Assembly (NCBI GenBank): GCA_024653775.1
Contig: JANLHZ010000101.1
Span: 1 to 37,850 of the forward strand
Reading direction: 5' to 3'
Source: Planctomycetota bacterium
Lineage (GTDB): Bacteria > Planctomycetota > UBA8742 > JACQVU01 > JANLHZ01
DNA length: 37,850 nt
Under the pieces are notes generated by a model. It ran no database searches. It was not told the DNA's origin and was given only the letters and a program-made list of their open reading frames with translations. Below, one piece after another: positions 16,820-37,850 of this stretch; position 1 is the stretch's first letter; each line of letters opens with the position of its first letter. A program made the translations under genes and the position numbers.

Positions 16820-19800
16820 ATGACCAGACGATTTGCCCGGTACTTTTCTTGTCTTGTCGCCTTATGCGTTTTTGTCGCCTCTTGCGGCGGCGGCGGCGGA
16901 GGTTCAAGCGCTCCCGCCTCCTCCACGGCGCTGGCGAACATTTCCGGACTCGTGCAGGATGAATCCGGAAGCGTAGTTAAGGACTTCAGCGTAATGCTTT
17001 TCGGCACTAATACCGACGAATTGAATTCGGCACCCATCGCGCGGTACGATTTCTCGGATGAAAACGGGGAATTCGAAATCACGGACCTTCCGGTCGGTAG
17101 CTACAAGATCGTTACCGTACCCGTATCCCAAACGCTCGCTGTAAGCGAGACGATTAACGTCAGCGCACCCGCAAGCGGAGTCGTTGCGAAAGTGACGCAG
17201 GGCGTGAGCCTGACGGGCCGGGTAGTGACGGACACCGACACTCCTATTGCGGGCGCGGAAATAACCCTTGACGACCCGTGGATGGTCGGCGGCTGGGGGA
17301 TCGAGCGTGCTCCGGTCGTGACGGACGCCAGCGGCAATTTCACTGTCGATCGTCTTCGCGCCGGATACCTCGCGCATCTGATCGTCTCCGACACCATAAA
17401 CGGCGTCACGCGTTTCGAGCGCGCCGTCGATTCGGACGATCCGAACAAGAACGTCGAGCTTGTCATCGATACGGGTCAGGCAACGCCGACCTACGCGCAT
17501 TTCCCTCCCGAGCTTAACACCGTCTATAATCTCGGCGCGGGCGAAATGCTGGACCTTACCCTCACTCCGGACGACTCCGCCACCGACTGGGACTTGCAGC
17601 TCGTCGGCCCGGACGGAAAGGTAGTCGCGGGATCGTACGAGGGCGCGGGGACGAACGAAACCATCAGTGTCAGCGCCGATGCTGCGGGCAATTACCGCAT
17701 ATTCACGCCGTGGATCGCGGGAAGCGGCCAGTTCAGCGTTACGCGCAGCACGAACACCCAAGGCTCCGGACTTACGCAGGCGTCGAACGCCGCCGGTCCG
17801 GGAACGCTCAAGAACGGAACCCTCTGGCCGACGGGCACGAACCCGACTCCCGCGCAGCTATGGACGCACATGCAGCAGCTTGGAACGCAGTACAACGTGC
17901 CGCCGGAGATCATCGCGTGCGTCGCGTCGCAGGAGAGCGACTGCAAGCAGTGGGACTCGAACGGCGACTTCGTGTACAACAAGACCGAGTGGCGCAACAA
18001 GAACGTAACTCCGCCTGGACTCGGGATGATGCAGCTAACGGGTTCGACGGCGACCGCGTTCGATACCGATCGTCTTGTCACGGACGTATGGTACAACATC
18101 GAGGCGGGCGTGCGCGTCCTCGTCGACAAGTGGAACCTGTGCGAGAAATCGCTGAAGGTTTTCGCCACGCCTAATCCGGATCGCATGGTCCTTGAAAACT
18201 GGTGGCACCCGATCCACGCCTACAACGGGTGGGTATCGAGCAATCAAACGATTCCGGACCTCTACTTCAAGCGTCTCAAGAACCTTCCGTATCCGCTTGA
18301 CCAGATGCTCTCAGGGCCGATAACGGTGACGTATCCTTCGACGGTTCTTCCGGGTTGGCACTGGAAGATGCCGTATACCGCAGATAACCTCGGCAGATTC
18401 ATCGACAGCGGCGGAACAACATATCCCGCGCCGACGAACGTCAGCGTTCTCGCGGCGAACGCGCCCGCGAACAATCTGCCCCAGAGCGCCGCGACGACGA
18501 CCGCAGCGGCAAGCGCGACGACCACCGTCTCGAAGCCCGCGATGACCTGGAGCGCGGCGTACAGCGGTAACTACACGAACGCATCCCGCACCGCGTCGAA
18601 CATCGACACCATCGTCATACACACGATCGAGGGAACGGCGTCGAGCGCGATCAACTGGTTCAAGAATTCGAGCGCGAAGGTCAGTTCGCACTACGTCGTC
18701 AGCAAGACGGGGCAGATCACGCAGATGGTCGACGTCGCGGACAAGGCGTGGACGCAGACGTATTACAACGGTCGCGCGATCGGAATCGAGTGCGAAGGTT
18801 ACGCAAGTCAGAACGGCTGGACCCCGCAGCTTATGAGCGCGCTCGAGCAGCTAACCGCGTGGCTCTGTCAGACGTACACCGTCAGCGCGGTACACCCTTC
18901 CGGACAGGCCGCCAGCAGTTCAAGCCCGTATAATAAGGGCGGCCTCGTCGGTCATTATCAGATCACGCCGTGGAACAAAACCGATCCGGGATCGTACTTC
19001 CCGTGGACAAGCTTCGTAACGAACGTAAACGCGATCCTTGGCGGAGGCTCGAGCGGAGGCGGCACGACTCCGCCCGCAAACCCGCCCGCCGCGCCGACGG
19101 GACTTTCGCCAAGCGGAAACACCGAGAACGGCCCCTCCGTCACGCTTAACTGGTCGAGCCTTTTCACCAGCGGCGTCACAAGCTACGAAGTCGAGATCGA
19201 GTACGGCGCGAGCACTTCGACGTTCGCTCCGTATCACGTCTACCTGGCCACTACGAACCAGCAGACCTTCTGGCCTTACGTCGATAACAACTACTATCGC
19301 TACCGCGCCCGCGGCAAGAATTCGGGCGGCTGGGGACCGAATTCCGCGTGGGCGTCGTTCTACTACACCACCACGCCTTCAACTACACCGGCGCCCACGC
19401 CTCTCGTTCCGCCGGCTCCGATGTCGCTCACGCCGACGGGTGGAACCACGGAAACTAACGCGGACGTCACCCTTGGATGGAGCGATCTATCGAGCAGCGG
19501 CGCAACTGTCTACGAACTCACTATCGAGTATTCCAGCGACAACGCCACGTGGAAGCCCTACGTCGTCTACACCGAGACCACGAACTCGAAGAAGTACTGG
19601 CCGCAGGTGGACCCGGCGTACTATCGCTTCCAGGTCCGCGGCCAGAACTCCGTCGGCTGGGGCGCGCTCAGCGCGTGGAGCGATTTCTATTTCAATACGA
19701 CCCCGGCTACGCCGACGCCGTCGCTTCCCGCGGCGCCCACCGGAATCCTGCCGCTTGACGGCAGCGTCGAGGCGGGTCCGAGCCTGACATATAGCTGGAA

Positions 19801-21571
19801 CGACATGTCGAGTTCCGGAGTCACCGGATACGAACTCGTTATCGAGTACGGTCCCGACGCGAACTCGTGGTCGCCTTACTACACTTATTCGCTGACCACG
19901 AACTCGAAGCTTTTCTACCCGCAGGTCGCGGACAGCAACTACCGCTTCAGCGTCCGCGCGCAGAACAGCGCCGGGTGGGGTCCGTACTCCGCCTGGAGCG
20001 GCTACTACTTCGGAACGCAGTCGACGTCGCCGCCGACCACCACTCCGCCCACCACCGGAGGCGGCGCGCCCACGCAGCCGACGATGACGTGGAAAGCCGC
20101 GGCGAGCGGAAACTTCAGCACCGCGAACCGCACGAGCGCGAGCATCGACACCATCGTGATCCACACGACGGAAGGCCCCGCCGGAAGCGCGGTAAACTGG
20201 TTCCAGAACTCCGCGGCGAAGGTTTCGAGTCACTACGTCGTCGCGGCGGACGGTTCGATCACGCAGATGGTGAAGATCAAGGATGTCGCATACACGCAGA
20301 CTTACTACAACGCTCGCGCCATCGGCATCGAGTGCGACGGATACGCGAGTCAGTCCGGCACCTGGACGCCGCAACTCGTCGCGAGCCTCGAGCAACTCGT
20401 CGCGTGGCTCTGCGTGACGTATAACGTCAGCGCGGTTCATCCTTCCGGAGACGCCAACCAGAGCGGCGGAACTTACACCAAGACCGGAGTCGTAGCGCAT
20501 TCGCAAATCCAGCCGTGGAACAAGAGCGATCCGGGTTCGTACTTCCCGTGGACGTCGTTCATGACGAACGTAGGCGCGATCATCAGCGGCGGCGGCGGTG
20601 CAACCACTCCTCCGACCACCGTGAATGCGCCGACCGCGCCTTCGGGACTATCGCCCGCGAGCGGAACCGAGTCTGGCGCAAGCGTCACGCTCGCGTGGGC
20701 CGACCAGTCGAGCGAGAACGTTACAAGCTACGAAGTCGTCATCGAATACGGTAGCGACGGCGCGAACTATTCGAGTTACGTCACCTACACGGAAACCGCG
20801 ACTTCGAAGGTTTTCTGGCCGGTCGTCGATCCCGCGCACTTCCGCTTCAAGGTGCGCGCGCAGAATTCCGGCGGATGGTCCTCGTACTCCGCTTATGCAA
20901 ACTTCCTGTACGCGACGAGCACGACCGCTCCTCCTGCGCCGACTTTGACGGTTCCGACGAACCTCGCGCCGGACGGAACGACGACGACCGAGACCGGACC
21001 TTCCGTCGTGATGATGTGGAGCAGCCTCGGCGGCTCTGGAGCATCGAGCTACGATGTCAAGATAGAGTACGGTTCCGACGGCGTAACCTACAGCGCTTAC
21101 CACACCTACACAAGCGTCACGACGAACCAGAAGGAGTTTTGGCCGCAGGTCGACAATAACTACTATCGCTTCAGCGTCCTCGCGAACTACTCGTCTGGCG
21201 CGAGTGCGTATTCGACTCCAGCGGTGTTCTACTTCAGCACGTCGGGCGCAAGCGCGGGCGGCGGGACTACCACTCCGCCGACGTCGTCGAACGTTCCGAC
21301 GAACCTCGGACCGACGTCGACTCAAACGAACGACAGCGTGATGCTCACCTGGGACACCGTCTCGGGCGCGACGAGCTACGAGGTCGAGATCGAGTACGGC
21401 GCGAACAACTCCACGTGGTCGTACTACTACACCTACACGCCGAGCGTGAACTCGAAGACGTTCTACCCGCAGGTAAACAACAACTACTACAGGTTCCGCG
21501 TCCGCGCGATGGTCGGCGGCACCTGGAGCAGCTACAGCGGCTGGACAAGCTTCAGTTACAACGGACCGTAA
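16820..21571 (+). CDS. Multidomain peptidoglycan hydrolase lipoprotein: SLT transglycosylase + two amidase domains + six Fn3-like modules
   Basis: 1583 residues; GAGG lies before the ATG. Lipobox VASC (Cys22) and a Gly linker come first, then two carboxypeptidase-regulatory-like modules (about 40-215) and a possible PPC-like beta domain (225-315). Residues about 340-490 resemble a lytic transglycosylase: VPPEIIACVASQESDC (catalytic Glu372) and GLGMMQLTG. Two N-acetylmuramoyl-L-alanine amidase (Amidase_2/PGRP) domains follow at about 580-740 and 1095-1250. Each keeps the zinc set: H601, H712, D722 and H1115, H1227, D1237. The amidases are close copies (KVSSHYVV, YYN-ARAIGIEC motifs), so one arose by duplication. 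Fn3-like modules lie three between the amidases and three after the second, each ending in a pattern like YRFRVRAQNSGGW. Expected outside the cytoplasm, cutting glycan strands and stem peptides. Target (own or foreign wall) is unknown. Confidence 0.87.
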   Translation: MTRRFARYFSCLVALCVFVASCGGGGGGSSAPASSTALANISGLVQDESGSVVKDFSVMLFGTNTDELNSAPIARYDFSDENGEFEITDLPVGSYKIVTVPVSQTLAVSETINVSAPASGVVAKVTQGVSLTGRVVTDTDTPIAGAEITLDDPWMVGGWGIERAPVVTDASGNFTVDRLRAGYLAHLIVSDTINGVTRFERAVDSDDPNKNVELVIDTGQATPTYAHFPPELNTVYNLGAGEMLDLTLTPDDSATDWDLQLVGPDGKVVAGSYEGAGTNETISVSADAAGNYRIFTPWIAGSGQFSVTRSTNTQGSGLTQASNAAGPGTLKNGTLWPTGTNPTPAQLWTHMQQLGTQYNVPPEIIACVASQESDCKQWDSNGDFVYNKTEWRNKNVTPPGLGMMQLTGSTATAFDTDRLVTDVWYNIEAGVRVLVDKWNLCEKSLKVFATPNPDRMVLENWWHPIHAYNGWVSSNQTIPDLYFKRLKNLPYPLDQMLSGPITVTYPSTVLPGWHWKMPYTADNLGRFIDSGGTTYPAPTNVSVLAANAPANNLPQSAATTTAAASATTTVSKPAMTWSAAYSGNYTNASRTASNIDTIVIHTIEGTASSAINWFKNSSAKVSSHYVVSKTGQITQMVDVADKAWTQTYYNGRAIGIECEGYASQNGWTPQLMSALEQLTAWLCQTYTVSAVHPSGQAASSSSPYNKGGLVGHYQITPWNKTDPGSYFPWTSFVTNVNAILGGGSSGGGTTPPANPPAAPTGLSPSGNTENGPSVTLNWSSLFTSGVTSYEVEIEYGASTSTFAPYHVYLATTNQQTFWPYVDNNYYRYRARGKNSGGWGPNSAWASFYYTTTPSTTPAPTPLVPPAPMSLTPTGGTTETNADVTLGWSDLSSSGATVYELTIEYSSDNATWKPYVVYTETTNSKKYWPQVDPAYYRFQVRGQNSVGWGALSAWSDFYFNTTPATPTPSLPAAPTGILPLDGSVEAGPSLTYSWNDMSSSGVTGYELVIEYGPDANSWSPYYTYSLTTNSKLFYPQVADSNYRFSVRAQNSAGWGPYSAWSGYYFGTQSTSPPTTTPPTTGGGAPTQPTMTWKAAASGNFSTANRTSASIDTIVIHTTEGPAGSAVNWFQNSAAKVSSHYVVAADGSITQMVKIKDVAYTQTYYNARAIGIECDGYASQSGTWTPQLVASLEQLVAWLCVTYNVSAVHPSGDANQSGGTYTKTGVVAHSQIQPWNKSDPGSYFPWTSFMTNVGAIISGGGGATTPPTTVNAPTAPSGLSPASGTESGASVTLAWADQSSENVTSYEVVIEYGSDGANYSSYVTYTETATSKVFWPVVDPAHFRFKVRAQNSGGWSSYSAYANFLYATSTTAPPAPTLTVPTNLAPDGTTTTETGPSVVMMWSSLGGSGASSYDVKIEYGSDGVTYSAYHTYTSVTTNQKEFWPQVDNNYYRFSVLANYSSGASAYSTPAVFYFSTSGASAGGGTTTPPTSSNVPTNLGPTSTQTNDSVMLTWDTVSGATSYEVEIEYGANNSTWSYYYTYTPSVNSKTFYPQVNNNYYRFRVRAMVGGTWSSYSGWTSFSYNGP

Positions 21572-23687: not shown

Positions 23688-26600
23688 ATGTTTAAAAGCA
23701 TCGTCTCGGATAATCGGCCTGTCGCTAAGACGGTCGTCTGTATGTCGCTTCTGGTAACGCTGTTTACATTTTCCGCTTGCGGAGGCGGTAGCGGCGGGAA
23801 CGGAGACCTCGCATCGCTTCTCGCGCAGCAGACCGGGAATGGCGGCGGCGGCGGAACTACCGTCAGCGCGGACGCACCCTCTGCGACGATCTCGCTGAAC
23901 ATTTCCGGAAGGCCGAAGGCGGGGAACGTTGCGATTCCGTACACGCTTTCACAGACCAACGGTCTGAGCGCGAACATTTCCGCGCAGTATTCCGTCGACG
24001 GCGGCGCGTTCGCGATCGCGACCCCCGCGTCCACGAACGAAGGAACGACAAACCTCTGGACGTCGCCATCCGGAAGTCAGCACGTTTTCACTTGGTCGAT
24101 GGATTCGGACATACCCGCAGGAAGTCACAACGTCGTTTTCCGCATCACGCCGAGCGTAGGCACCGTAACGGGCGCAGCCGCGACGACGAGCAGTTTCGCG
24201 GTCAGTTCCCAGGGATCGACCTCGACCACCGCGCCCACGGTGAGCATTCTCAGTTCAGTTGGCGGAATGACCCTCAGCGGAAACGTCACGATTCTGTATC
24301 AGATCACCGACCAGCAGAACGACATTGCGTCGGTGACGGTTAGCTGGTCGACCACGGGCACATCATTCAGCCCGCTCACGCTTTCAAGCAGCAGCAGCCC
24401 GACTTCGAACCTTCTGACGACCTCCGGAAACAACATCTACACCATCGTGTGGGACAGCAACAGCGATCTTTTCAACTCGACTTCGAACGTCGTCGTCCGC
24501 GTGACTCCCGCTGACTCAAGCGGCGCGGGCACTCCAGTGGACACGCCGCAGTTCACCGTTTCGAACGGCACCGCGTCTCCTCCGCCGACCTCTGGTCCGG
24601 CGACCGCGCCGACCACGACGGGAGTGACGTCTCCCGCCCAGGGTTCGACTGTCACCTCGTCCCCGATCACAATCGTGTACGTCCTCAGCGACCAGGAGTC
24701 GAGTACGACCAGCGTCGCAGTCGAATACTGGACCGGCGCTTCGTGGCTCACCTGCACGGAAGTGACTGGAACGCCGAGCGAAGGCATCACTGGACTCACG
24801 ACTTCTCCCGCAGGAGTGACGCACACCTTCGTCTGGAACGCGTCCCAGGATCTCGGCACTACCGCGAATCTGCAAGTGTTCGTCCGCGTCGTCCCGACCG
24901 ACACCTCGGGCACCGGAACAAGCGCGCAGACGGACTTCGTTGTAAACCTCAGCGGAAGTTCGGGCGGACCCACCAACGGCGGCGGCTCCGGACCGTCCGC
25001 TCCGCCGACCGTGACCATCCAGAGTCCCACCGGCGGCGCGAACGTTTCCGCGTCCCCTGTCACGATCAATTACACCCTGACGACGAGCGCCGCTGGAACC
25101 GCGAACGTCGCGTTCGAATACTGGGACGGCTCCGTCTGGCAGCCCTGCACCGAGTTCACCGGCACCGGCTCGACCAGCCAGGGCAAGACCAATCTTTCGA
25201 CTTCGCCCTCCGGAAGCGCGCACGTGTTCCAGTGGGACATCGCTTCCCAGCCCACCGCGACCGCGTCGAACCCGGTCTTCTACCGCGTCGTCCCGACGAA
25301 CACCGCCGGAGCAGGCCAGGCGGCGTCCGACAACTTCAACTTCGGTTCGAGCAACGTGAAGCCGACCACGGTCGCGATCACGTCGCCCGGAAGCGGGACC
25401 ACAGTGACCGCGTCGCCAGTCGTGGTGCGCTACACCGTCTCCGACCCCGAAAGCGACACGATCAGCATCGCGCCGCAGTGGTGGGACAGCCCGGCAAGCG
25501 CCTGGCGCGCCTGCACCGAATTCACGGGAACCGGAAGCACGAGCGAAGGCACCACCGGACTCACCTCGAGCCCGTCCGGCGTGGCGCACGTCTTCGAATG
25601 GGACGCCGCTACAGATCTCGGGGCAACCGCGAACTTGCAGGTTTACTACCAGATCGTTCCCTCTGACGCGGGTGGCGCTGGAACACCGAACGGTCAGTAT
25701 TTCTTCAACGTCCAGCTCGGAGGCAGCACAGGCGGTACAGGTGGCGCAAGCACTTACGGCGCCCCGCTGTTCGCGCCGAACTCTCCGCCCAGCGTTACGT
25801 ACCCGACTCCCGTCAGCAGCGGAGGCGCGTTTGGCACCGCGATGCTCGGATCCCTAAGCGGAATCAATCCGGGCGAAATCGATTCCGCCGACTTCGACTT
25901 CGACGGCGATTACGATCTCGCGCTTTGCGACACCGGAAGCTCCAATCTGTACATCTTCGACAGCAACGGAAACGGGACGTTCACTCTGCTTGCGACCATC
26001 CCGGTCGGATTCAGCGGAGCGACGAGCACGGGCAACGCGCCGCGCACGCTCAAGATCGGCGATTTCAACAACGACGGCTGGCCCGACATTATGACCCTGA
26101 ACCAGGGCAGCTTCGATTTCAGCATCGTCGCGAACCTCGGCGGCGGAACCTTCGTCGATAACAACGATGTCCTTTGCATTTCCGCAAGCGCGTATCAATC
26201 GAGCAGCTTCACCGTCTTCGACGCCTGCATCGCGGATTTCGACGGCGATGGCAATCTCGACGTAGGCTGCTGCAGTCAGCCCTCGCAGATAGCGTTCAAT
26301 CCGAGCTCGCTTCTCGGCTTCCTCCAGAACCCGGGCGCGCTATTCAACTTCGGCACGAACCAGATTCCTGGCGGAACCAGCGAAGAGGTGACGATCCACC
26401 TCGGCGGTGGCGATACAACCTTCGCTCCGCTTGTCGGATACACCGGCGCCATCGGCTGGATCGCGTCCTGCAACGCCGGCGACGTGAACGGCGACGGCAA
26501 GCCAGAGATGGTCATCGGCAACCTGCCTTCCGCGCAGGTCCAGTGCCTCGCGATCTATCAGAACCAGTGCACGCCGGGAACGGTGAACTTCGTCGTCCCG

Positions 26601-27179
26601 CCTTCAAACGGAACCGCGGGAGCTTCGCAGTACTATCCCGCGAACGATGCGTGGGTCGCGTCCTTCGGCCAGAACGGTAACGGAGCCTCCATGTCCCCGA
26701 TGGATTTCGAAATCCGCGATATGAACGGCGACGGCTGGAACGACTTCATCTTCGCGATGACCCCCGCAACGGCGACGAACACCGCCGGACAGCTTATGCT
26801 CGCGGTCAACTCGAAGAACTGGCCGGCTCAGGGCGCATCGACGTTCAATGCCGCGACGGATGGATTCGGGACCAGCGGCCACCAGACATACAGCGTCGGC
26901 GCCAACCAGTTCGGCACCACCATCGGCGATTTCAACGGCGACGGCAAGCTCGACGCCGCGACAGCGAACACGAACTCGAACGACGTGTCCGTCCTGCTGA
27001 ACACCGGCTCGACAACGGGCAACGTTCTTTCGAACGGAACCCAGTACGCCGCGGGGCTCAGCGCGATGTGGATCGCTAACGGCGACTTCAACGGCGACGG
27101 CAAGCTCGACATCGCCGTCAGCGAAAACGTCGGCGCGGGAACCAGCACGGGCGGATATTCCGTCCTCCTCGGGCAGTAA
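23688..27179 (+). CDS. Large FG-GAP/VCBS propeller lipoprotein with five Ig-like modules
   Basis: 1163 residues; GAGGG lies seven bases before the ATG. Lipobox FSAC (Cys31) is followed by a Gly-rich linker. Five related beta modules of about 110 residues span about 60-680, each built on VxIxYTLSD...VxxWx...(S/T)EGxT.LxTSPSGxxHxFxWd...xxVxxRVxPxD. From about residue 725 to the end come seven D-x-N/D-x-D-G-x-x-D loops (ADFDFDGDYD, GDFNNDGWPD, ADFDGDGNLD, GDVNGDGKPE, RDMNGDGWND, GDFNGDGKLD twice), a likely seven-bladed calcium-binding propeller. The layout matches the smaller lipoprotein at 1265-3211, which keeps one beta module. Probably surface-displayed, binding sugar or protein; no catalytic motif. 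Downstream is a repeat cluster without another gene on this strand. Confidence 0.87.
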   Translation: MFKSIVSDNRPVAKTVVCMSLLVTLFTFSACGGGSGGNGDLASLLAQQTGNGGGGGTTVSADAPSATISLNISGRPKAGNVAIPYTLSQTNGLSANISAQYSVDGGAFAIATPASTNEGTTNLWTSPSGSQHVFTWSMDSDIPAGSHNVVFRITPSVGTVTGAAATTSSFAVSSQGSTSTTAPTVSILSSVGGMTLSGNVTILYQITDQQNDIASVTVSWSTTGTSFSPLTLSSSSSPTSNLLTTSGNNIYTIVWDSNSDLFNSTSNVVVRVTPADSSGAGTPVDTPQFTVSNGTASPPPTSGPATAPTTTGVTSPAQGSTVTSSPITIVYVLSDQESSTTSVAVEYWTGASWLTCTEVTGTPSEGITGLTTSPAGVTHTFVWNASQDLGTTANLQVFVRVVPTDTSGTGTSAQTDFVVNLSGSSGGPTNGGGSGPSAPPTVTIQSPTGGANVSASPVTINYTLTTSAAGTANVAFEYWDGSVWQPCTEFTGTGSTSQGKTNLSTSPSGSAHVFQWDIASQPTATASNPVFYRVVPTNTAGAGQAASDNFNFGSSNVKPTTVAITSPGSGTTVTASPVVVRYTVSDPESDTISIAPQWWDSPASAWRACTEFTGTGSTSEGTTGLTSSPSGVAHVFEWDAATDLGATANLQVYYQIVPSDAGGAGTPNGQYFFNVQLGGSTGGTGGASTYGAPLFAPNSPPSVTYPTPVSSGGAFGTAMLGSLSGINPGEIDSADFDFDGDYDLALCDTGSSNLYIFDSNGNGTFTLLATIPVGFSGATSTGNAPRTLKIGDFNNDGWPDIMTLNQGSFDFSIVANLGGGTFVDNNDVLCISASAYQSSSFTVFDACIADFDGDGNLDVGCCSQPSQIAFNPSSLLGFLQNPGALFNFGTNQIPGGTSEEVTIHLGGGDTTFAPLVGYTGAIGWIASCNAGDVNGDGKPEMVIGNLPSAQVQCLAIYQNQCTPGTVNFVVPPSNGTAGASQYYPANDAWVASFGQNGNGASMSPMDFEIRDMNGDGWNDFIFAMTPATATNTAGQLMLAVNSKNWPAQGASTFNAATDGFGTSGHQTYSVGANQFGTTIGDFNGDGKLDAATANTNSNDVSVLLNTGSTTGNVLSNGTQYAAGLSAMWIANGDFNGDGKLDIAVSENVGAGTSTGGYSVLLGQ

Positions 27180-31029: not shown

Positions 31030-31141
31030 TGTGCGCCAGAACGGCTGCGAACACAAGTTCATGCTAACGAAGTGTCGGATGTCTCATGGTCCGTCCCGGA
31101 ATTCAGGCGCGCGCAACCTGGGCGTCGATAAATTTTTCCGA

Positions 31142-31168
31142 TTGACAGTTTTTTCTCAAAAATATGCT
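31142..31168 (+). promoter_or_regulatory. Candidate promoter for the capsid-like cluster
   Basis: A perfect TTGACA (31142-31147) is followed, after 15 bases, by TATGCT (31163-31168), which keeps the TAT and final T of the -10 consensus. This lies about 60 bases before the first gene of the cluster (31230), in an AT-rich stretch. The spacer is two bases shorter than ideal. By-eye evidence only. Confidence 0.35.
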
Positions 31169-31229
31169 TGCTTGTCCGTTTTGATTCTGCTTTCTTTTGA
31201 CTACACAAACCAAAGTCACGGAGAAAATC

Positions 31230-31721
31230 ATGGCGTATGTCGGCAACATTCCACTATATGGTACTAGTCGTTGGGACGACGTAATACGCGATTTACGTAG
31301 CGGCGGGCTGGTCAAGTTCCACATTTCCTACCAGAATTTCTCGTCGCTCGCGCCGGGGGTGAAGTCGGAAGCGTTCATGTTCCCGAACTTCATTCCGGCA
31401 AATTGCTACGTATCCGCCGCCTGGATGCAGGTCGATACGGGGTTCGCGGATAACCCGGTTACCTTGACGCAGGCTGATGTCGACGCCGGAATCAACGTTG
31501 AAGACCCGCTTCTTTACATCTCCGGAGCAGATGCGCTTTTCGGCGGCGGGATCGTGTTACGCAACTTTCCCGGCACGCAATTCGATGGATCGAAATCGCC
31601 TGCGAATGACGGACTCAAAACTCTTACCATCACGTTCACTTCCGATGTAGACCTGAACACCATAACCGCCGGCGAACTCGACGTATACCTCGTCTTCCAG
31701 ACTTTCTTCAACCCCTTCTGA
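31230..31721 (+). CDS. Phage-type beta-sandwich (virion-like) protein, first gene of the capsid-like cluster
   Basis: ATG 31230 has GGAG seven bases upstream and gives 163 residues; a frame opening at a TTG at 31197 is less likely. No signal peptide and no transmembrane helix. The pattern is that of small all-beta proteins common in phage genomes: a first strand (VKFHISYQNFSSL), a strand ending in PAN-C-YV, a strand WMQVDTGFADNP, a Gly-rich loop (SGADALFGGGIVLRNF), and the pair LKTLTITFTSDVDLNTITAG / ELDVYLVFQTFF. I know such proteins as virion or tail/spike-associated, with a probable single jelly-roll. It precedes the putative capsid gene by 81 bases. Function inferred from pattern and neighbours only. 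Confidence 0.5.
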   Translation: MAYVGNIPLYGTSRWDDVIRDLRSGGLVKFHISYQNFSSLAPGVKSEAFMFPNFIPANCYVSAAWMQVDTGFADNPVTLTQADVDAGINVEDPLLYISGADALFGGGIVLRNFPGTQFDGSKSPANDGLKTLTITFTSDVDLNTITAGELDVYLVFQTFFNPF

Positions 31722-31802: not shown

Positions 31803-32798
31803 ATGGCAAACCTCAAAAACGTACCGAAGATGATAAACCGCGCCACGCTCTACGCGGAGCAGAGCAATTCGTCGGTTTCCCTCACGAATCCCCCAAGTAC
31901 TATCCAAAGGCTGCTGCTCTGTGTGCAGGGAAAGATAACCAAACCGAACCCGGGAGATACCGCATTCTATTCCGGCGACGGCGTCCTGAACGCGGTGAGA
32001 TACATAACCGTTCTCGTCGACGATGTGGTCGTGTACTCCGCGCCTCCCATCGACGGATTCTGGATGTCGTCCACGATAGATCAAAGTGGCTCGTCGGATA
32101 TGTTCCAGCCGGACGTCAATAATCCCGCGGAAACCGAGTTCTTCTTCAGATGGTGCATGGAAATCAGCTTCGACCTCGCGGGACTCCTCTTCTCCGGCGC
32201 GGGCGGAATATACATGGCGCAAAGCGTACAGATAGATATAGTGTGGGGAACCATCGACGACCTTTTCATCGAAGCGCCAGGCTGGACCCTCTCCGATATG
32301 ACGATGCGCATCAATACGATCTTCACGCAGAAAGGCGATAACGGAAGACTTTATCGAACCGCAAGAACCGGCTCGATCTATCCGCTTCTGGTCGCAGGCG
32401 AGAATCCCCCGATTTTTCCCGCGCCGGGTAGCGCGGTGATTCTTGGACTTTGCGCGATTTTCAGGTACACTGACCTCCCGAATAACTTCAGGAACGAACG
32501 CACCGACGACGCGGTTCGAAACTGGAAGATCGTGGGCTGGGAAGGAGATCTGATAATCGACTCGCTTTATGAAGAGATCAGAGAATACATGTTCGCTACT
32601 CTCGGCTACCGCGTGACTGGTCCGACGATAATGGGACTTCCAACAGGTTTGCTCTGGTGGCCTCTGACCATCGACGGCATCACCGGCGGAGTGATGCAGA
32701 ATTCCACGAATTTCCTGACGAATATTTTCAACGCGGTAAGCCCGCTATTCCCGGGTCTCAAGGTAGACTTCTATACATATAGAAACCTGACGGTGTAA
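31803..32798 (+). CDS. Candidate double-jelly-roll major capsid protein
   Basis: 331 residues; AAGGA lies six bases before the ATG. No signal peptide, no membrane helix and no lipobox. The pattern resembles double-jelly-roll capsid proteins of tailless phages (PRD1/PM2/FLiP-type): IQRLLLCVQGKITKPN, then LNAVRYITVLVDDVVVYSAPP; EFFFRWCMEISFDLAGLL...GIYMAQSVQIDIVWGTIDDLF; then a second set of strands (WTLSDMTMRINTIFT, VILGLCAIFRYTDL, WWPLTIDGITGGVMQNSTNF). Length falls in the usual 270-400 range. The C-terminal SPLFPGLKVDFYTYRNLTV recurs in a remnant at 35126-35210, showing that this gene was once duplicated. The next gene starts one base after its stop. I rely on strand pattern and context, not on an alignment; another beta-rich assembly protein remains possible. 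Confidence 0.5.
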   Translation: MANLKNVPKMINRATLYAEQSNSSVSLTNPPSTIQRLLLCVQGKITKPNPGDTAFYSGDGVLNAVRYITVLVDDVVVYSAPPIDGFWMSSTIDQSGSSDMFQPDVNNPAETEFFFRWCMEISFDLAGLLFSGAGGIYMAQSVQIDIVWGTIDDLFIEAPGWTLSDMTMRINTIFTQKGDNGRLYRTARTGSIYPLLVAGENPPIFPAPGSAVILGLCAIFRYTDLPNNFRNERTDDAVRNWKIVGWEGDLIIDSLYEEIREYMFATLGYRVTGPTIMGLPTGLLWWPLTIDGITGGVMQNSTNFLTNIFNAVSPLFPGLKVDFYTYRNLTV

Positions 32799-32799
32799 T

Positions 32800-33954
32800 A
32801 TGCAAGGATACTTGAAATTCGGATTCAACACCCCGTTTCAGAAAATGCAGCGCGAGCGGTTTCTCGCGTCGTTCAATGAATTAGCGGCGAAATCGAGTAG
32901 CTGCGGATGCCCTTCAGAAGAAGAAATAGCGCCCTCTGGAATTTCCAAACCCGCTGAAAGAAGATCTCCGCGCAGAAATCAGGGCGAATTCAATAATAAA
33001 CAAATGAAGGAAATGGACTTCGAAGAAACAGGTGTTTTCGAGGGACCGTCACCGCTTATAAAAAAATCCGACCTCCATGGCCAGAAAGTGCAGAAAACAC
33101 AGAGTCGTGAATCTAAAGGAGCCTCTAGCGGTCTACCGACAACCATTGGTCGTGTGCCAAGAAATTATCATCAACCTTCTGGATTGGGAGAACAATTTAT
33201 AGGAACTGCGTACACGCCATCTGTGAAACCACCTGGAAGTACGCGTACAGCGCCTCCTATAACGGTAACATCTATCGGAGGCGATGATGACATTTTTTTC
33301 AGACCTCAAGATGACTTCTATCGTGGACCTTCACCTGAACATGGAGGTTATGATTATTGCTTAAAATATGGCAACATATATAGTACATGGGTTCAGGTTT
33401 ATGATGAGACGCTTAACCAAAGTCCAATATACGATAAACCTGTACTTTATCCGGACCCGCCTGAAAATCCAAATATCATCAGATGGAAGATTATTATGAG
33501 GATTCCGACAGTGACAAAATACTGTGAAATCAAATACAGGTATTGCTGCGGGGGATTTTTTGGACTCGATTGCTATTACGAATGGACTTGGAGCGAAGAT
33601 CCTGAAACCAATAATGGGCACAAATGTAGAATTGAAACGCATCTAGGCCCCCCCACTATTGATAGTGAGGGAATAATCGATGTTCGCGGTGCGTGGGACA
33701 TCGTCCAAAGTGGAATAAATAATTTTCTGCAAACAGTATTTAGCGTCGCGCCGATGACCAATCCTATGGATATTTTGGTTGGCATGGGGCAGGCAACTAC
33801 ACAGGCAGCGGGAAATGTAATTGGCACTGAACTAGGCAATAGAATCGTTACATATACCGAAGAGAGATTACTTGGAATGGAGCAAGAAGAAGAAGAAGAA
33901 GAAGAAGATCAAGGGAGACCTCGTCAGAATGGCAATGGAGATGATGCTCAATAG
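32800..33954 (+). CDS. Unknown protein coupled to the capsid-like gene; disordered front, YYEWTWS domain, acidic tail
   Basis: 384 residues; its ATG lies one base after the capsid-like stop codon, so translation is probably coupled. Residues 1-30 are basic and aromatic (YLKFGFNTPFQKMQRERFL); residues about 30-175 are polar and low in structure, with CGCPSEEE and RRSPRR. Residues about 185-275 form a Tyr- and Cys-rich domain with YRYCCGG and DCYYEWTWSED. Residues about 290-350 look helical, partly amphipathic. The end is acidic, with a run of eight Glu coded by GAA/GAG-type triplets (33884-33908), then Gln/Asn/Asp. The domain with YYEWTWS is shared with the lipoprotein at 34006. No known family recognised. 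Could be a minor virion or assembly protein. Base composition shifts to AT-rich within the gene. Confidence 0.6.
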   Translation: MQGYLKFGFNTPFQKMQRERFLASFNELAAKSSSCGCPSEEEIAPSGISKPAERRSPRRNQGEFNNKQMKEMDFEETGVFEGPSPLIKKSDLHGQKVQKTQSRESKGASSGLPTTIGRVPRNYHQPSGLGEQFIGTAYTPSVKPPGSTRTAPPITVTSIGGDDDIFFRPQDDFYRGPSPEHGGYDYCLKYGNIYSTWVQVYDETLNQSPIYDKPVLYPDPPENPNIIRWKIIMRIPTVTKYCEIKYRYCCGGFFGLDCYYEWTWSEDPETNNGHKCRIETHLGPPTIDSEGIIDVRGAWDIVQSGINNFLQTVFSVAPMTNPMDILVGMGQATTQAAGNVIGTELGNRIVTYTEERLLGMEQEEEEEEEDQGRPRQNGNGDDAQ

Positions 33955-34005: not shown

Positions 34006-34794
34006 ATGATTTATCTATCGAGATGCATAAAAGAGACCTGCATACCCACAATGCTTTTCATAATGGTATTACTGGTATTTTCCACCGTTTCTTGCGGGTC
34101 CGTCAGTGCATTTAATCAAGTTGTGCATCTTGGAGTCACACCTAAATCAGTCTTAAATAACACTAACCAGTTTCTTTCATCAGAGGAAACAACGCCGCCA
34201 GGAGGGTCACAACATTCCGAATTGACCGTTACTTTTATAAATGGTGACTATGACACATATTACATTAGTTATGACAATTTTTTTCACACTGAAATGCAAT
34301 CAGCTTACGATAATGGTCTAATTTATAATTTATCGTATGCAACGGCAAAAGTAAGGGTGTGGGAACGCGGGACCAATGGCGATTCGGAGTTTTTATTAAT
34401 TGCGGAGCGAGGATCTGATCAAGATGATGATTCTATATTGTGGCGTAAAGTCCGTCGCACTCCCACTGAGGCAATGTTTCGAAAAATATATTTCCGCAGA
34501 AAGTATAGGCAATTTCTGTTTTTCATAGATTATTATTATGAGTGGACTTGGTCTAATGATGTTAGTGAAATGCTGCAATCCAGTATAGATTATGTATTAC
34601 ATTCAGGTATATTAATGTTGCCAGATGAGCCAAGCACTCTATATGAAAATATCTCTCGTTTTTTAGATGAAATCGAAGATTTAACAGATGAGGACATAGA
34701 TACTCTCGAAAAGACAATCAGGTCAATTTTTGGAGAGGACAAGTCTATGTCAATTATAGAAAGAATTAAGACTCTCTCCAAAATGAAGCTGTAA
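34006..34794 (+). CDS. Predicted lipoprotein with YYEWTWS domain
   Basis: 262 residues in a clearly AT-rich stretch; GAGGAAAA stands just before ATG 34006. After a 15-residue lead, a hydrophobic segment ends at the lipobox TVSC (Cys30), so it should be an envelope lipoprotein (a start at Met16 would also give a signal peptide). Residues about 70-190 are beta-rich and Tyr-rich, ending in ILWRKVRRTPTEAMFRKIYF and DYYYEWTWSND. This segment aligns by eye with the matching part of the protein at 32800 (IIRWKIIMRIPTVTKYCEIKY, DCYYEWTWSED). The C-terminal third (about 215-262) is acidic helix (LDEIEDLTDEDIDTLEKTI). No known family recognised. It may be the membrane-anchored form of a shared module, for example a host-side receptor, exclusion or assembly factor; that is speculation. 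Confidence 0.6.
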   Translation: MIYLSRCIKETCIPTMLFIMVLLVFSTVSCGSVSAFNQVVHLGVTPKSVLNNTNQFLSSEETTPPGGSQHSELTVTFINGDYDTYYISYDNFFHTEMQSAYDNGLIYNLSYATAKVRVWERGTNGDSEFLLIAERGSDQDDDSILWRKVRRTPTEAMFRKIYFRRKYRQFLFFIDYYYEWTWSNDVSEMLQSSIDYVLHSGILMLPDEPSTLYENISRFLDEIEDLTDEDIDTLEKTIRSIFGEDKSMSIIERIKTLSKMKL

Positions 34795-34817: not shown

Positions 34818-35114
34818 ATGTCTTCAACAATGCGAAACTTTTCCTTCGACTTATCGCAGGCGCCGGTGAACTCGCAGTTCTACGTGGATGCGAAGAATAT
34901 CGTTTTCGAGGTCGGGGGAGGGGGACCGTTTCCCGCGGGGGGATATTTTCAGGTCGACAGCAACCCGCCGGTACAGATTGGGGGAGCGCTCAATCTTAAT
35001 ATTGGGTTCGTGCAGGAGATTCGGTTCGTTCACGTCGTCCTGCCGCAGGCTAGCGGGTGGTCCGCGGGGATTACGATTTCGAATCTTTCAGAGGTTTCCG
35101 CGCCGCTTATATGA
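34818..35114 (+). CDS. Small virion-like beta protein (98 aa), copy 1
   Basis: 98 residues with no signal or membrane helix. The sequence (SQFYVDAKNIVFEVGGGGPF, AGGYFQVDSNPPVQIGG, ALNLNIGFVQEIRFVHVVLP) follows the pattern of small phage structural proteins that begin with a strand, a GxYFxVDS turn, then a strand ending at F and a run of hydrophobic positions. Start at ATG 34818 is supported by the paralogue at 37543, which has the same length up to the shared RNF-FDLS motif; no ribosome binding site is evident. The gene has the GC-rich composition of the capsid-like gene, unlike its AT-rich neighbour. It is followed at once by a remnant of the capsid-like gene's end, so a whole capsid-like copy once stood here. 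Confidence 0.55.
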   Translation: MSSTMRNFSFDLSQAPVNSQFYVDAKNIVFEVGGGGPFPAGGYFQVDSNPPVQIGGALNLNIGFVQEIRFVHVVLPQASGWSAGITISNLSEVSAPLI

Positions 35115-35210
35115 TATGATATATTTCCGAGCAATTTTTTCAAGACGCGGTCTCCGCTGTTTCCGGAACTCAAGGCGAACTTCTATTCTTACAGAGACCT
35201 GACGGTGTGA
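35115..35210 (+). pseudogene. Remnant of the capsid-like gene's 3' end
   Basis: Between the stop of the 98-residue gene and ATG 35212, about 85 bases (35126-35210) align with the last 90 bases of the capsid-like gene at about 32710-32798, for example the shared CTTCTAT and CCTGACGGTGT. In the frame ending at TGA 35208 it reads SPLFPELKANFYSYRDLTV, against SPLFPGLKVDFYTYRNLTV in the intact gene. There is no start codon and a stop lies at 35112-35114. The next gene starts one base after this TGA, as at the intact copy. Confidence 0.85.
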
Positions 35211-35211
35211 A

Positions 35212-36579
35212 ATGGATAACAGACACGAAATCGGACCGCCGCTCGTAAGGTATAGGAAAGCGAGACTCCGCGCATCGTCGCTGGGACTCCCGCCACCGAA
35301 TATCGAGGACTACATCGGCAAGCCCGGAAATAATAGTAATAGCAATTGCGATTGTGGTCGGAAAAATAAAATATCGAATAATAGTATCGATATTATTGAA
35401 AACGATTCGCCGTTCGTGACGAAATCCGAACTTGACCGGCGCTCTCCACGGCGGGACCTGTCTGGAATGGAGACTTCGAATTCCGTATTCAGAATTAGTA
35501 GACAAGAAGCGCGTAGACGTATGTCCATCGCTACGATCGACGCGATTCGCACAATGAATGTTTTTTATGAAGGAAGAACAGGATTCAATTCCGAAGAGGA
35601 AATTAAACAGCACTGGAGACAAACTATAACGGATATCGCGCAGTCTATAGACGTAAATGCAAGTGATTCGATACCGTTTCTGGAAGTATCTTCTGGCGAT
35701 AAAATTGTTGGTTTCATTAACGAACTAAGCAAATTAGTTGCACACGCAACCGTTGACGGCCCGCTGTCGGGCGTAACTCCTGGATTTGTCGGTACGAAAG
35801 TTCTTTCATTCATTATTCGCCCGAGTTTGTCGAACTGCGGTTATGTTTATAGCGAGAGCGGCGATGACGAGCTGATTCTGCCGGTAAGCAGCGCTTTTCA
35901 GGTTAAAGTGGCGACTAATGGCTCCGACAAAGCCTCCGTAGTGGAAACTTTCGCGATGTACCAGGGAAGAAGCCTGGATCAGCAATCCGAACTTGCGATT
36001 CCTTGGTGTTTTTCTCTCGATCCTGAGGGTCCGCCTAGTGTTGGAGTCGTGGATTTGCGAACAGGCGATATCGAATGCATCGAGTCGCTTAAAATTGCGG
36101 CGCCGGGAATGGCGAGGGCTGTGCCGTGGTCCGTTCTGAATCGAGGAATCTTGCTAAAAACAGGCTCGTTACCGAGTGCGAACGGTAATCCCGCGTCTGC
36201 GCTATTATTCAGCCAATCAAGAATTCCCGCGGAAGTTCCAGTTATCGGCGGTTTGCTCGCGCAAGGTATTTCGGACAGCGATGAGCCTGAGCCCGCACCA
36301 GAACGAGAACAAACACAAGCAGAACGCGATGATGCGACGGCGTCCAAGTTGTTTGCTATAAGTAATTTATATGAGCTAGGCCTGACTTATAGCGATTGCC
36401 GAAGTATTGCTGTTCGCAATTGCCGAGGCGCTGTTCCGGGAAGACAGAACTGTGCTTCGCAGGCAATAGGCTGCGCCACCGCTTTACTGGCGGCGGCAGA
36501 CATAGATCCAGAGCAGCGTCAAGTCAACCGCACCGCGGTTGTTGCTGCGGTCATTGCTGCGCTATGTCCGGGTGGCTAA
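35212..36579 (+). CDS. Unknown 455-residue protein in the capsid-like cluster
   Basis: Starts one base after the capsid-remnant stop codon, the same placement as the gene at 32800, which suggests a common origin of the two junctions. Both also have a basic front with RRSPRR (LDRRSPRRDLSGME here). Residues 1-100 are polar and basic with an Asn/Ser-rich stretch (NNSNSNCDCGRKNKISNNS). Residues about 105-350 look mixed alpha/beta (VLSFIIRPSLSNCGYVYSES, PPSVGVVDLRTGDIECIESLKIAAP, WSVLNRGILLKTG). An acidic, Pro/Glu-rich linker follows, then a Cys-containing C-terminal helix-rich part (YSDCRSIAVRNCRG, NCASQAIGCATALLAAADI). No signal peptide, membrane helix or known motif. Function unknown. Confidence 0.6.
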   Translation: MDNRHEIGPPLVRYRKARLRASSLGLPPPNIEDYIGKPGNNSNSNCDCGRKNKISNNSIDIIENDSPFVTKSELDRRSPRRDLSGMETSNSVFRISRQEARRRMSIATIDAIRTMNVFYEGRTGFNSEEEIKQHWRQTITDIAQSIDVNASDSIPFLEVSSGDKIVGFINELSKLVAHATVDGPLSGVTPGFVGTKVLSFIIRPSLSNCGYVYSESGDDELILPVSSAFQVKVATNGSDKASVVETFAMYQGRSLDQQSELAIPWCFSLDPEGPPSVGVVDLRTGDIECIESLKIAAPGMARAVPWSVLNRGILLKTGSLPSANGNPASALLFSQSRIPAEVPVIGGLLAQGISDSDEPEPAPEREQTQAERDDATASKLFAISNLYELGLTYSDCRSIAVRNCRGAVPGRQNCASQAIGCATALLAAADIDPEQRQVNRTAVVAAVIAALCPGG

Positions 36580-36618
36580 CTCAATAATTAACTCTAATTA
36601 TGAAGTATGGGAATTCCA

Positions 36619-37491
36619 ATGAAATATCTATTCTTAACGCTTTTTGCCGTCATGTTGATAGCATCCTGTTTCGATTTGGATTCGTTTGACAGTGCACAAA
36701 GCGATAAACAATTTACGGAACTTACAGAAGCGAATACGCCAGAAGAGCAATTGCAAATTTGGCGGAATAAACGAGTGCTCGCACGCGAAGACAGTGCTTT
36801 TTACATTAGTTTCGCTGGGTTCGACATGGATCTTAACGAGTACGATTGTGATGTAAGCAGTGTTTTGACGCAAAAAAATGCGCATTACCTTGCGGAGTTG
36901 ACAAATCTCAACACATTCGCGTTCGCAGGTGACTTCTCAAACGCAGCTATAGATGATTCGGTTTTTTCGTATCTTTCGGAATTACATAATTTGAATTTCG
37001 TATCAATATCAGGAGCATTTTTTGGCGATCGGACGCTAGAAATTATATCGAAACTTCCACAACTGACGGATTTAATTTTACATTGGGAGACAGGGAGAGT
37101 AACTAACCAAGGAATAGCCTATTTCAGGAACAACAATAGGTTAACCTCGTTAACGCTGGCTGCTTCCACGAGAGAAGAGGACGGGTATGCGCTCGATAAT
37201 GAAGGGATCGAAATCGTATCAACGATCTCCACGCTAGAGGTTTTAGACGTCAATTGCTTTAACATTTCCTCGCAGGCGATTTCCGACATAGCCAAACTTG
37301 AAGAACTATGGATGCTTCGGATCGACGGACTTGCACAGGAAGACGTGGATTATTCTCCTCTCACCTCGCTCGGGAAATTGAAAGCTTTATACATCGATCT
37401 TCCTGTTTCAGAATCAACTAAAGACCAAATCCGGCAAATGTTTTCCGGAAATAACCAGGATATGGATATTAGCTTTGGGTCGAGCAACTAA
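36619..37491 (+). CDS. Leucine-rich-repeat lipoprotein
   Basis: 290 residues from ATG 36619 (GGGA seven bases upstream); the in-frame ATG at 36607 would only add four residues. Lipobox IASC at Cys17. Residues about 20-75 are a polar linker and an unassigned segment (YISFAGFDMDLNEYDCDVSS). Residues about 90-270 contain about six leucine-rich-like repeats of roughly 25 residues (LAELTNLNTFAFAGDFSNAA, LSELHNLNFVSISGAFFGDR, ISKLPQLTDLILHW, ISTLEVLDVNCFNISSQAIS, IAKLEELWMLRIDGLAQED, LTSLGKLKALYIDLP). Such repeats form a curved binding surface, so it probably binds a protein in the envelope. The AT-rich composition resembles the lipoprotein at 34006, not the surrounding GC-rich genes. No partner is evident. 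Confidence 0.7.
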   Translation: MKYLFLTLFAVMLIASCFDLDSFDSAQSDKQFTELTEANTPEEQLQIWRNKRVLAREDSAFYISFAGFDMDLNEYDCDVSSVLTQKNAHYLAELTNLNTFAFAGDFSNAAIDDSVFSYLSELHNLNFVSISGAFFGDRTLEIISKLPQLTDLILHWETGRVTNQGIAYFRNNNRLTSLTLAASTREEDGYALDNEGIEIVSTISTLEVLDVNCFNISSQAISDIAKLEELWMLRIDGLAQEDVDYSPLTSLGKLKALYIDLPVSESTKDQIRQMFSGNNQDMDISFGSSN

Positions 37492-37542: not shown

Positions 37543-37850
37543 ATGTTAGAATCCATCAGAAATTTCTTTTTCGACCTATCGAAAGCGCCGGTGAACTCGC
37601 AGTTCAACGTTGATGCGAAGAATATCGTTTTCGAGGTCGGAGGAGGGGGACCGTTTCCTTCGGGGGGATACATTCAGGTCGATAGCAATTCACCGACGAG
37701 GATCGATGGCGCATTCAAGTTGAATATCGGGTTCGTGAAAAAGGTCAGGTGGATTCATCCCGCGTTATTCACGATAGGCGGAAATAAAAATACCCAAGGC
37801 GCGAACTTTGCAACGGAGGAGGTATCTACGCCCCTTTCCGGAATTGCAAG
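37543..37850 (+). CDS. Small virion-like beta protein, copy 2, cut by window edge
   Basis: An open frame from ATG 37543 to the window end, with no stop. The start MLESIRNFFFDLSKAP is collinear with copy 1 at 34818 (MSSTMRNFSFDLSQAP), and the next part is nearly identical (VDAKNIVFEVGGGGPFPSGG, then IQVDSN). Later it diverges and contains an extra loop (GGNKNTQGANFATEE) absent from copy 1. DNA identity is high in the first half (GCGCCGGTGAACTCGCAGTT shared). The copies arose by duplication with divergence at the far end, as expected for exposed surface loops. By analogy to copy 1, a capsid-like gene may follow just past the window. Confidence 0.6.
   Translation, partial: MLESIRNFFFDLSKAPVNSQFNVDAKNIVFEVGGGGPFPSGGYIQVDSNSPTRIDGAFKLNIGFVKKVRWIHPALFTIGGNKNTQGANFATEEVSTPLSGIA

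Follow-up and report, generated by a model that had tools for sequence, protein, structure and literature searches.

The DNA considered here is contig JANLHZ010000101.1 of a Planctomycetota bacterium (assembly GCA_024653775.1, 5.4 Mb in 331 contigs), a stretch of 37,850 nucleotides to which we refer as the window, or as C288 where it is compared with other contigs of the same genome. Near its right end some 90 bases repeat the 3′ end of a capsid-like gene, B, whose complete copy lies upstream. Several arrays of the form A-B-[effector-membrane follower-C]n are found in this genome, and we think it on balance probable that the scrap of B is an insertion scar within such an array, in which genes A and B are fixed and polymorphic effector modules follow them.

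Local DNA alignment of 32650-32811 with 35110-35230 gives a score of 89, against a mean of 17 and a maximum of 32 in 2000 shuffles, and the second-best site for the B tail in the whole window, on either strand, scores 29. Similarity confined to chance words is thereby ruled out, and the preliminary description of this DNA was right to place the decayed 3′ end of a capsid-like gene between a gene of 98 residues and one of 455. The homologous stretch, 35123-35211 on the forward strand, has no start codon of its own and carries small indels in its first half; its last 19 codons and stop are intact and align without gaps (SPLFPELKANFYSYRDLTV against SPLFPGLKVDFYTYRNLTV, 14 of 19 alike). The two copies end in GTG TAA T ATG (32798/32800) and GTG TGA A ATG (35211/35212), and the observation that a large open reading frame (ORF) begins one base after the stop of the intact and the remnant copy alike is thus confirmed (ATG at 32800 and at 35212). 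The footprint had originally been drawn across 34818-35210, which is correct for the last 90 or so bases, but 34818-35114 is a complete gene C, an intact member of a separate family of 96-101 residues and no part of the remnant. The remnant shares its reading frame with the preceding C gene, from which it is parted by the C stop and a few bases, in both of the B-tail footprints that we found (window 35112-35211 and L017:787-912), possibly by chance (1 in 9).

The locus had also been proposed to have grown by duplication of a capsid-plus-follower unit and then to have lost one capsid gene by deletion. The tail is indeed a homologous duplicate, but duplication and deletion of a whole unit are unsupported, because neither of the effector candidates behind the two B ends, E1 (384 residues) and E2 (455 residues), is a copy of the other (a forced alignment gives 19%), because a footprint of the same kind and of almost equal size recurs independently on contig C9, and because the tails of host genes are duplicated in a similar manner. 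Only the last 90 or so bases of B are duplicated, no 5′ piece of a second B having been found anywhere in the window, and no intermediate with a longer second B beside an intact B was found at the related loci of the genome.

On C9, gene C is followed by 99 bp of that array's own B tail (92-93% identity) and then by a second effector, the two B-tail copies differing by seven silent changes and one replacement, so that modules displaced downstream with a footprint of their carrier are seen both in the window and on C9. Comparable duplications are found at the outer edges of the arrays. When eight left ends were compared with 13 right ends, five one-to-one left/right pairs shared a duplication with scores of 84-224, the other pairs reaching at most 29 and shuffles at most 27. 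In each pair the sequence in common comes from the end of a host gene, its 3′ part: 122 bp of an unnamed 272-residue gene (C9/C136), 116 bp of mnmA (C244, both edges on one contig), 129 bp of a CoxM-like gene (C249/C191), 60 bp of a gene of at least 849 residues (C243/C300) and 47 bp of a cytochrome-peroxidase-like gene (C18/C276), where host gene names other than mnmA were assigned by eye from translations. These duplicates end at -18 to +10 bases from the stop codon of the target. A target-site duplication of fixed length was rejected, since the lengths range from 47 to 129 bp. Because the mnmA pair of C244 and the B-tail footprint of C9 each lie inside a single contig, they are not products of contig joining. 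Taken with the host-gene cases, the footprints of the B tail seem to reflect one and the same insertion behaviour, with B as the target.

The tail copies themselves carry a record of their origin. In the six cases that were counted (the window was left out because of its indels), they differ by 21 silent changes at 131 sites and 13 replacement changes at 406 sites, a silent excess with P = 4e-6 against fully neutral divergence and P = 0.0065 under a model with constraint on one copy and drift in the other. Since the differences fall mostly at silent sites, the copies had probably diverged before they met, and it is likely, if not certain, that one of them came in already diverged, from another strain's gene. 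Prophages inserted at the 3′ ends of genes, such as e14 in icd, have the gene tail at both ends of the insert, with mostly silent differences. An e14-type prophage has one integrase and one target, whereas the arrays sit behind at least five host genes, and behind B, without an integrase in the arrays read.

The arrays of this genome follow a common plan consisting of a leader, gene A (151-163 residues), gene B (323-332 residues), a large variable effector gene that starts 1-3 bases past the stop of B, a membrane or lipoprotein gene (in some cases two) and gene C, which is the final gene of the module at the loci read. A complete A-B pair is present on C288, C249, C244 and C9. The A family has eight matches in the genome (four of them cut by contig ends), B has three further complete paralogues and the C family has 21 matches; the breaks of many contigs fall within A, B or C, which is what near-identical repeats would do to an assembly. 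None of the three genes matched a known family. B was missing from two overlapping sets of genomes, 148 relatives and 391 other members of the phylum, from a scan of genome contigs, from IMG/VR viral contigs and from 50,697 phage records, and has no match among PDB sequences; A found no match in the scans of genome contigs and IMG/VR viral contigs, nor C in IMG/VR viral contigs, and scans with PADLOC and NCBIfam returned nothing convincing.

In the window all parts of the array lie on the forward strand. The leader (31122-31195) is 91% identical to that of a sister array (C249:7395-7468) and precedes gene A (31230-31721; 163 residues from the ATG, or 174 from an upstream TTG), B (31803-32798; 331 residues, with weak likeness to double-jelly-roll capsids), E1 (32800-33954), its follower I1 (34006-34794; 262 residues, an immunity candidate with a lipoprotein-like signal, TVSC) and the intact gene C (34818-35114). 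Directly behind the footprint come E2 (35212-36579) and its follower I2 (36607-37491), a leucine-rich-repeat (LRR) lipoprotein of 294 residues (IASC) with 47% identity to a follower on C300. A second gene C (37543-37767) covers the first 75 positions of the family and then enters inverted sequence, bases 37759-37850, the closing 92 of the contig, matching the start of C136 in reverse complement without a difference. This may be a real rearrangement or inversion, or else a repeat at which the assembly was joined. At both ends of the 64.7-kb contig C180 (L025, L026) the same B-tail/effector/C array occurs inverted, together with neighbouring genes, which is either a large inverted repeat or an assembly artefact. 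Elsewhere in the window, 16820-21571 and 23688-27179 encode surface-type proteins of very large size (Amidase_2, SLT and F5/8 type C domains; FG-GAP repeats) which, as far as seen, are unconnected to the arrays.

Within each B type the effectors have a short common N-terminus and then diverge completely. The N-terminus of E1, MQGYLKFGFNTPFQ, is common to the C249 effector, the remainder being unrelated, and the N-terminal motif of E2 differs from that of E1 and matches the C300 effector (E = 8e-10). Between C180 and C251 the B tail and the first 78 nt of the effector hardly differ, after which the encoded proteins are unrelated; the first and second effectors of C9 have 35 nt in common, and the C9 and C244 effectors 36 residues. 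The first C9 effector and that of C251 share a middle region with peptidoglycan-binding resemblance and differ at their ends. Close relatives with a conserved N-terminal part and unrelated C-terminal parts, the pattern of polymorphic toxins, are therefore present. A 660-residue effector candidate with a long GGxGGxGGxG glycine-rich region (L010:13725-15707) is unlike the others in the set. By sequence resemblance, several effectors look like cell-wall hydrolases or toxins: Ntox44 on the C249 effector (E = 6e-4) and Hydrolase_2 on the C251 effector are weak matches below cut-off, PG_binding_3 and phage endolysin PHROGs profiles match weakly among the set, and DUF3238, a domain of unknown function on the C180 effector, is the sole domain above its curated cut-off. 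Motifs resembling lytic transglycosylases in the C9 and C244 effectors were seen by eye only and found no support from Pfam SLT; neither effector matched PDB sequences.

No effector (0 of 9) has a signal peptide or N-terminal hydrophobic segment, whereas all 13 followers have a signal, a lipobox or a membrane segment, four of them with the lipobox just behind a hydrophobic segment. This split fits export of the effectors by a non-Sec route together with immunity proteins that guard the envelope, without proving it, and the position of the followers directly downstream, with their membrane topology, fits putative immunity genes at the loci read. On C300 the LRR lipoprotein related to I2 stands beside a small coding scrap fused to a truncated C: about 13 first residues of C are in frame with about 78 residues, and the intact lipoprotein follows (L010:12467-12751). 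The scrap may be the C-terminal remainder of a lost effector; its similarity to the C-terminus of E2 is weak (one in 2000 shuffles is equally good, and BLAST gives nothing). Its neighbour is compatible with a candidate immunity gene retained after loss of the effector.

We propose that a new [effector-follower-C] module was inserted directly behind the B stop by a recombination that left two B 3′ ends. The first tail copy would complete B in front of the new effector at 32800, and the second (35123-35211) would stay in front of the displaced older effector at 35212, preserving its start-codon context. In three types (C9, C180 and C251) an AGGTGA that may serve the effector as ribosome-binding site overlaps the stop of B, and on this account a footprint would keep the displaced effector translatable. 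The B piece at the end of C251 (L027:6989-7241) has a one-base frameshift relative to the near-identical C180 copy and an intact effector behind it. The incoming [B tail-effector-follower-C] DNA may recombine at the B tail as a circle; alternatively, one side may join by homology and the other illegitimately, the route suggested for Vibrio type VI secretion system (T6SS) arrays (Kirchberger et al., 2017; PMC5361080). The same process would have placed whole A-B-...-C arrays behind host genes, duplicating 47-129 bp of their 3′ ends. The effectors, being without a signal peptide, would dock by the short N-terminus that is matched to the local B type, be exported with the A, B and C proteins and attack the cell envelope of neighbours, the follower protecting the producer. 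Recombination route, delivery, toxicity, immunity and assembly of B are all steps that we infer.

Several points weigh against this account. All of the array evidence comes from one draft genome whose contigs break within the array repeats; three left ends, the window's own included, and eight right ends had no detectable partner. For the host genes alone, the one-sided drift model gives P = 0.08, which is suggestive at most. The array stretches read contain no integrase, the four tyrosine integrases of the genome lying elsewhere, and no known enzyme accounts for a new pair of flanks at each different host gene. Most effector domains fall below curated cut-offs, and toxicity, immunity, secretion and the particle are inferences.

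Some of the same observations could be accommodated by tandem duplication of a full (A-)B-effector unit, for example through a circular copy recombining through B, with the second B then deleted to about 90 bases before its stop and selection for E2 expression holding the deletion back. In the C9, C180 and C251 types the signals that start translation of the effector do lie in the B tail, where a deletion would naturally come to rest, and the order of C gene and then B tail at both loci agrees with this history. It would apply to the B cases alone. Against it, E1 and E2 are not duplicates of each other, like scars occur at five host genes that were not duplicated, and a longer second B beside an intact B was not found, although C251 begins with at least 250 bp of a frameshifted B, what lies upstream being missing from the assembly. 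Insertion with duplication of a gene tail covers all seven footprints and deletion of a second B only two, and insertion is favoured for this reason; we regard the duplication history as unlikely. Nor do the arrays behave as an integrase-driven island, at least five different host genes being used with no single fixed target.

It is improbable, in our judgement, that the arrays are small integrated elements, proviruses or satellites, of a tailless double-jelly-roll virus, with A, B and C as virion proteins, the effectors as virion lysins for entry or exit and the duplications as attachment sites. In favour of such elements, the gene-3′-end duplications look like phage attachment sites, some effector profiles are wall-hydrolase-like, and the top matches of the B model in two structure libraries include the PRD1 P3 and STIV (Sulfolobus turreted icosahedral virus) coat proteins. 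A family search of the whole assembly for a packaging ATPase of the Pox_A32 type found none, however, divergent ATPases outside that family remaining possible, and the arrays read contain neither a replication gene nor an integrase. A, B and C lack relatives in IMG/VR and B lacks a match among the phage records. Moreover, near-identical carriers bear wholly different cargo, the target gene is different each time, and each cargo is paired with a membrane follower that a lysin would not need. Still more doubtful, and to our mind quite unlikely, is that an extracellular fibre or coat is built from A, B and C subunits and that the variable proteins encoded behind them decorate it or act on it as enzymes, not as weapons. 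The top matches of the C model, Ena endospore-appendage subunits (probability 1.00, E = 6e-3, template modelling (TM) score 0.44), point this way, but they are weak, stand beside cupins and describe a beta-sandwich of generic kind; no signal peptide is recognisable in the effectors, and module swapping with paired membrane followers is left unaccounted for.

The structural models bear on the nature of the carrier. C is predicted to be a single, generic beta-sandwich (predicted local distance difference test, pLDDT, 84). The B model is poor (pLDDT 43.5, from four sequences in the alignment), yet Foldseek placed double-jelly-roll coat proteins near or at the top in both the PDB and BFVD libraries: PRD1 P3, the STIV coat, vaccinia D13, Wip1 and several giant-virus capsids (E = 2e-3 to 2e-2, TM about 0.2-0.3), with PRD1 P3 and the STIV coat at probability 1.00, E = 4e-3 to 9e-3 and TM about 0.3. 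B thus weakly resembles double-jelly-roll capsid proteins, and we keep a capsid-like carrier as a hypothesis. The full picture, a capsid-derived, non-tailed A/B/C particle with swappable envelope-attacking effectors and paired immunity proteins, whose modules and entire arrays insert right behind stop codons and duplicate the 3′ end of the gene there, is speculative and we consider it rather unlikely as a whole.

Comparison with known systems places the arrays among effector-immunity arrays in their logic, if not in their carrier. Orphan cdiA-CT/cdiI modules of contact-dependent growth inhibition (CDI) and rhs-CT modules are displaced downstream and retain a varying length of carrier sequence before the toxin, with homology that stops abruptly at the junction (Poole et al., 2011; PMC3150448), as do the displaced modules described here. 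In CDI/Rhs, however, the footprint falls within a single long toxin gene and orphans as a rule have no start (PMC3150448), whereas here a separate gene upstream supplies the footprint with its 3′ end, and the displaced effector, which has a start context of its own, is a complete ORF. Pfam detected no CdiA or Rhs carrier domain among the proteins of the arrays (for CdiB and Rhs no search of the whole genome was made). In the T6SS arrays of Vibrio cholerae, modules are added at the same point and older ones shifted back, for which homology-facilitated illegitimate recombination has been proposed (Kirchberger et al., 2017; PMC5361080). Our arrays share the fixed entry point and the displacement, but in T6SS arrays the old effector is usually lost and its immunity gene kept (PMC5361080), whereas the displaced effector is kept here, and the T6SS sheath gene VipA was not found in the genome. 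Polymorphic toxins in general, including a MuF class proposed in 2012 to be delivered in association with phage capsids (Zhang et al., 2012; PMC3482391), resemble the arrays in that a variable C-terminal part is joined to a constant carrier part, an immunity candidate lies next to it and modules are swapped. MuF systems come with terminase, portal and tailed-phage capsid genes (PMC3482391), whereas the chassis here, made up of A, B and C, bears a weak likeness to double jelly-rolls, and neither a terminase nor a portal was seen in the arrays. The double-jelly-roll capsids themselves are among the best matches of the B model, without a sequence match to B or a packaging ATPase in the genome.

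The arrays of this genome point to an unrecognised mobile, putative toxin system with a capsid-like protein. The signature of orphan modules, known from other systems, now turns up where no T6SS sheath gene was found in the genome, on a chassis made of three families without a match to anything known, of which one may have the fold of a virus capsid, and the one-to-one gene-tail duplications at the array edges provide a testable record of module movement. If it were true, the reading of A, B and C as a particle would mean a new class of antibacterial delivery together with a new insertion behaviour.
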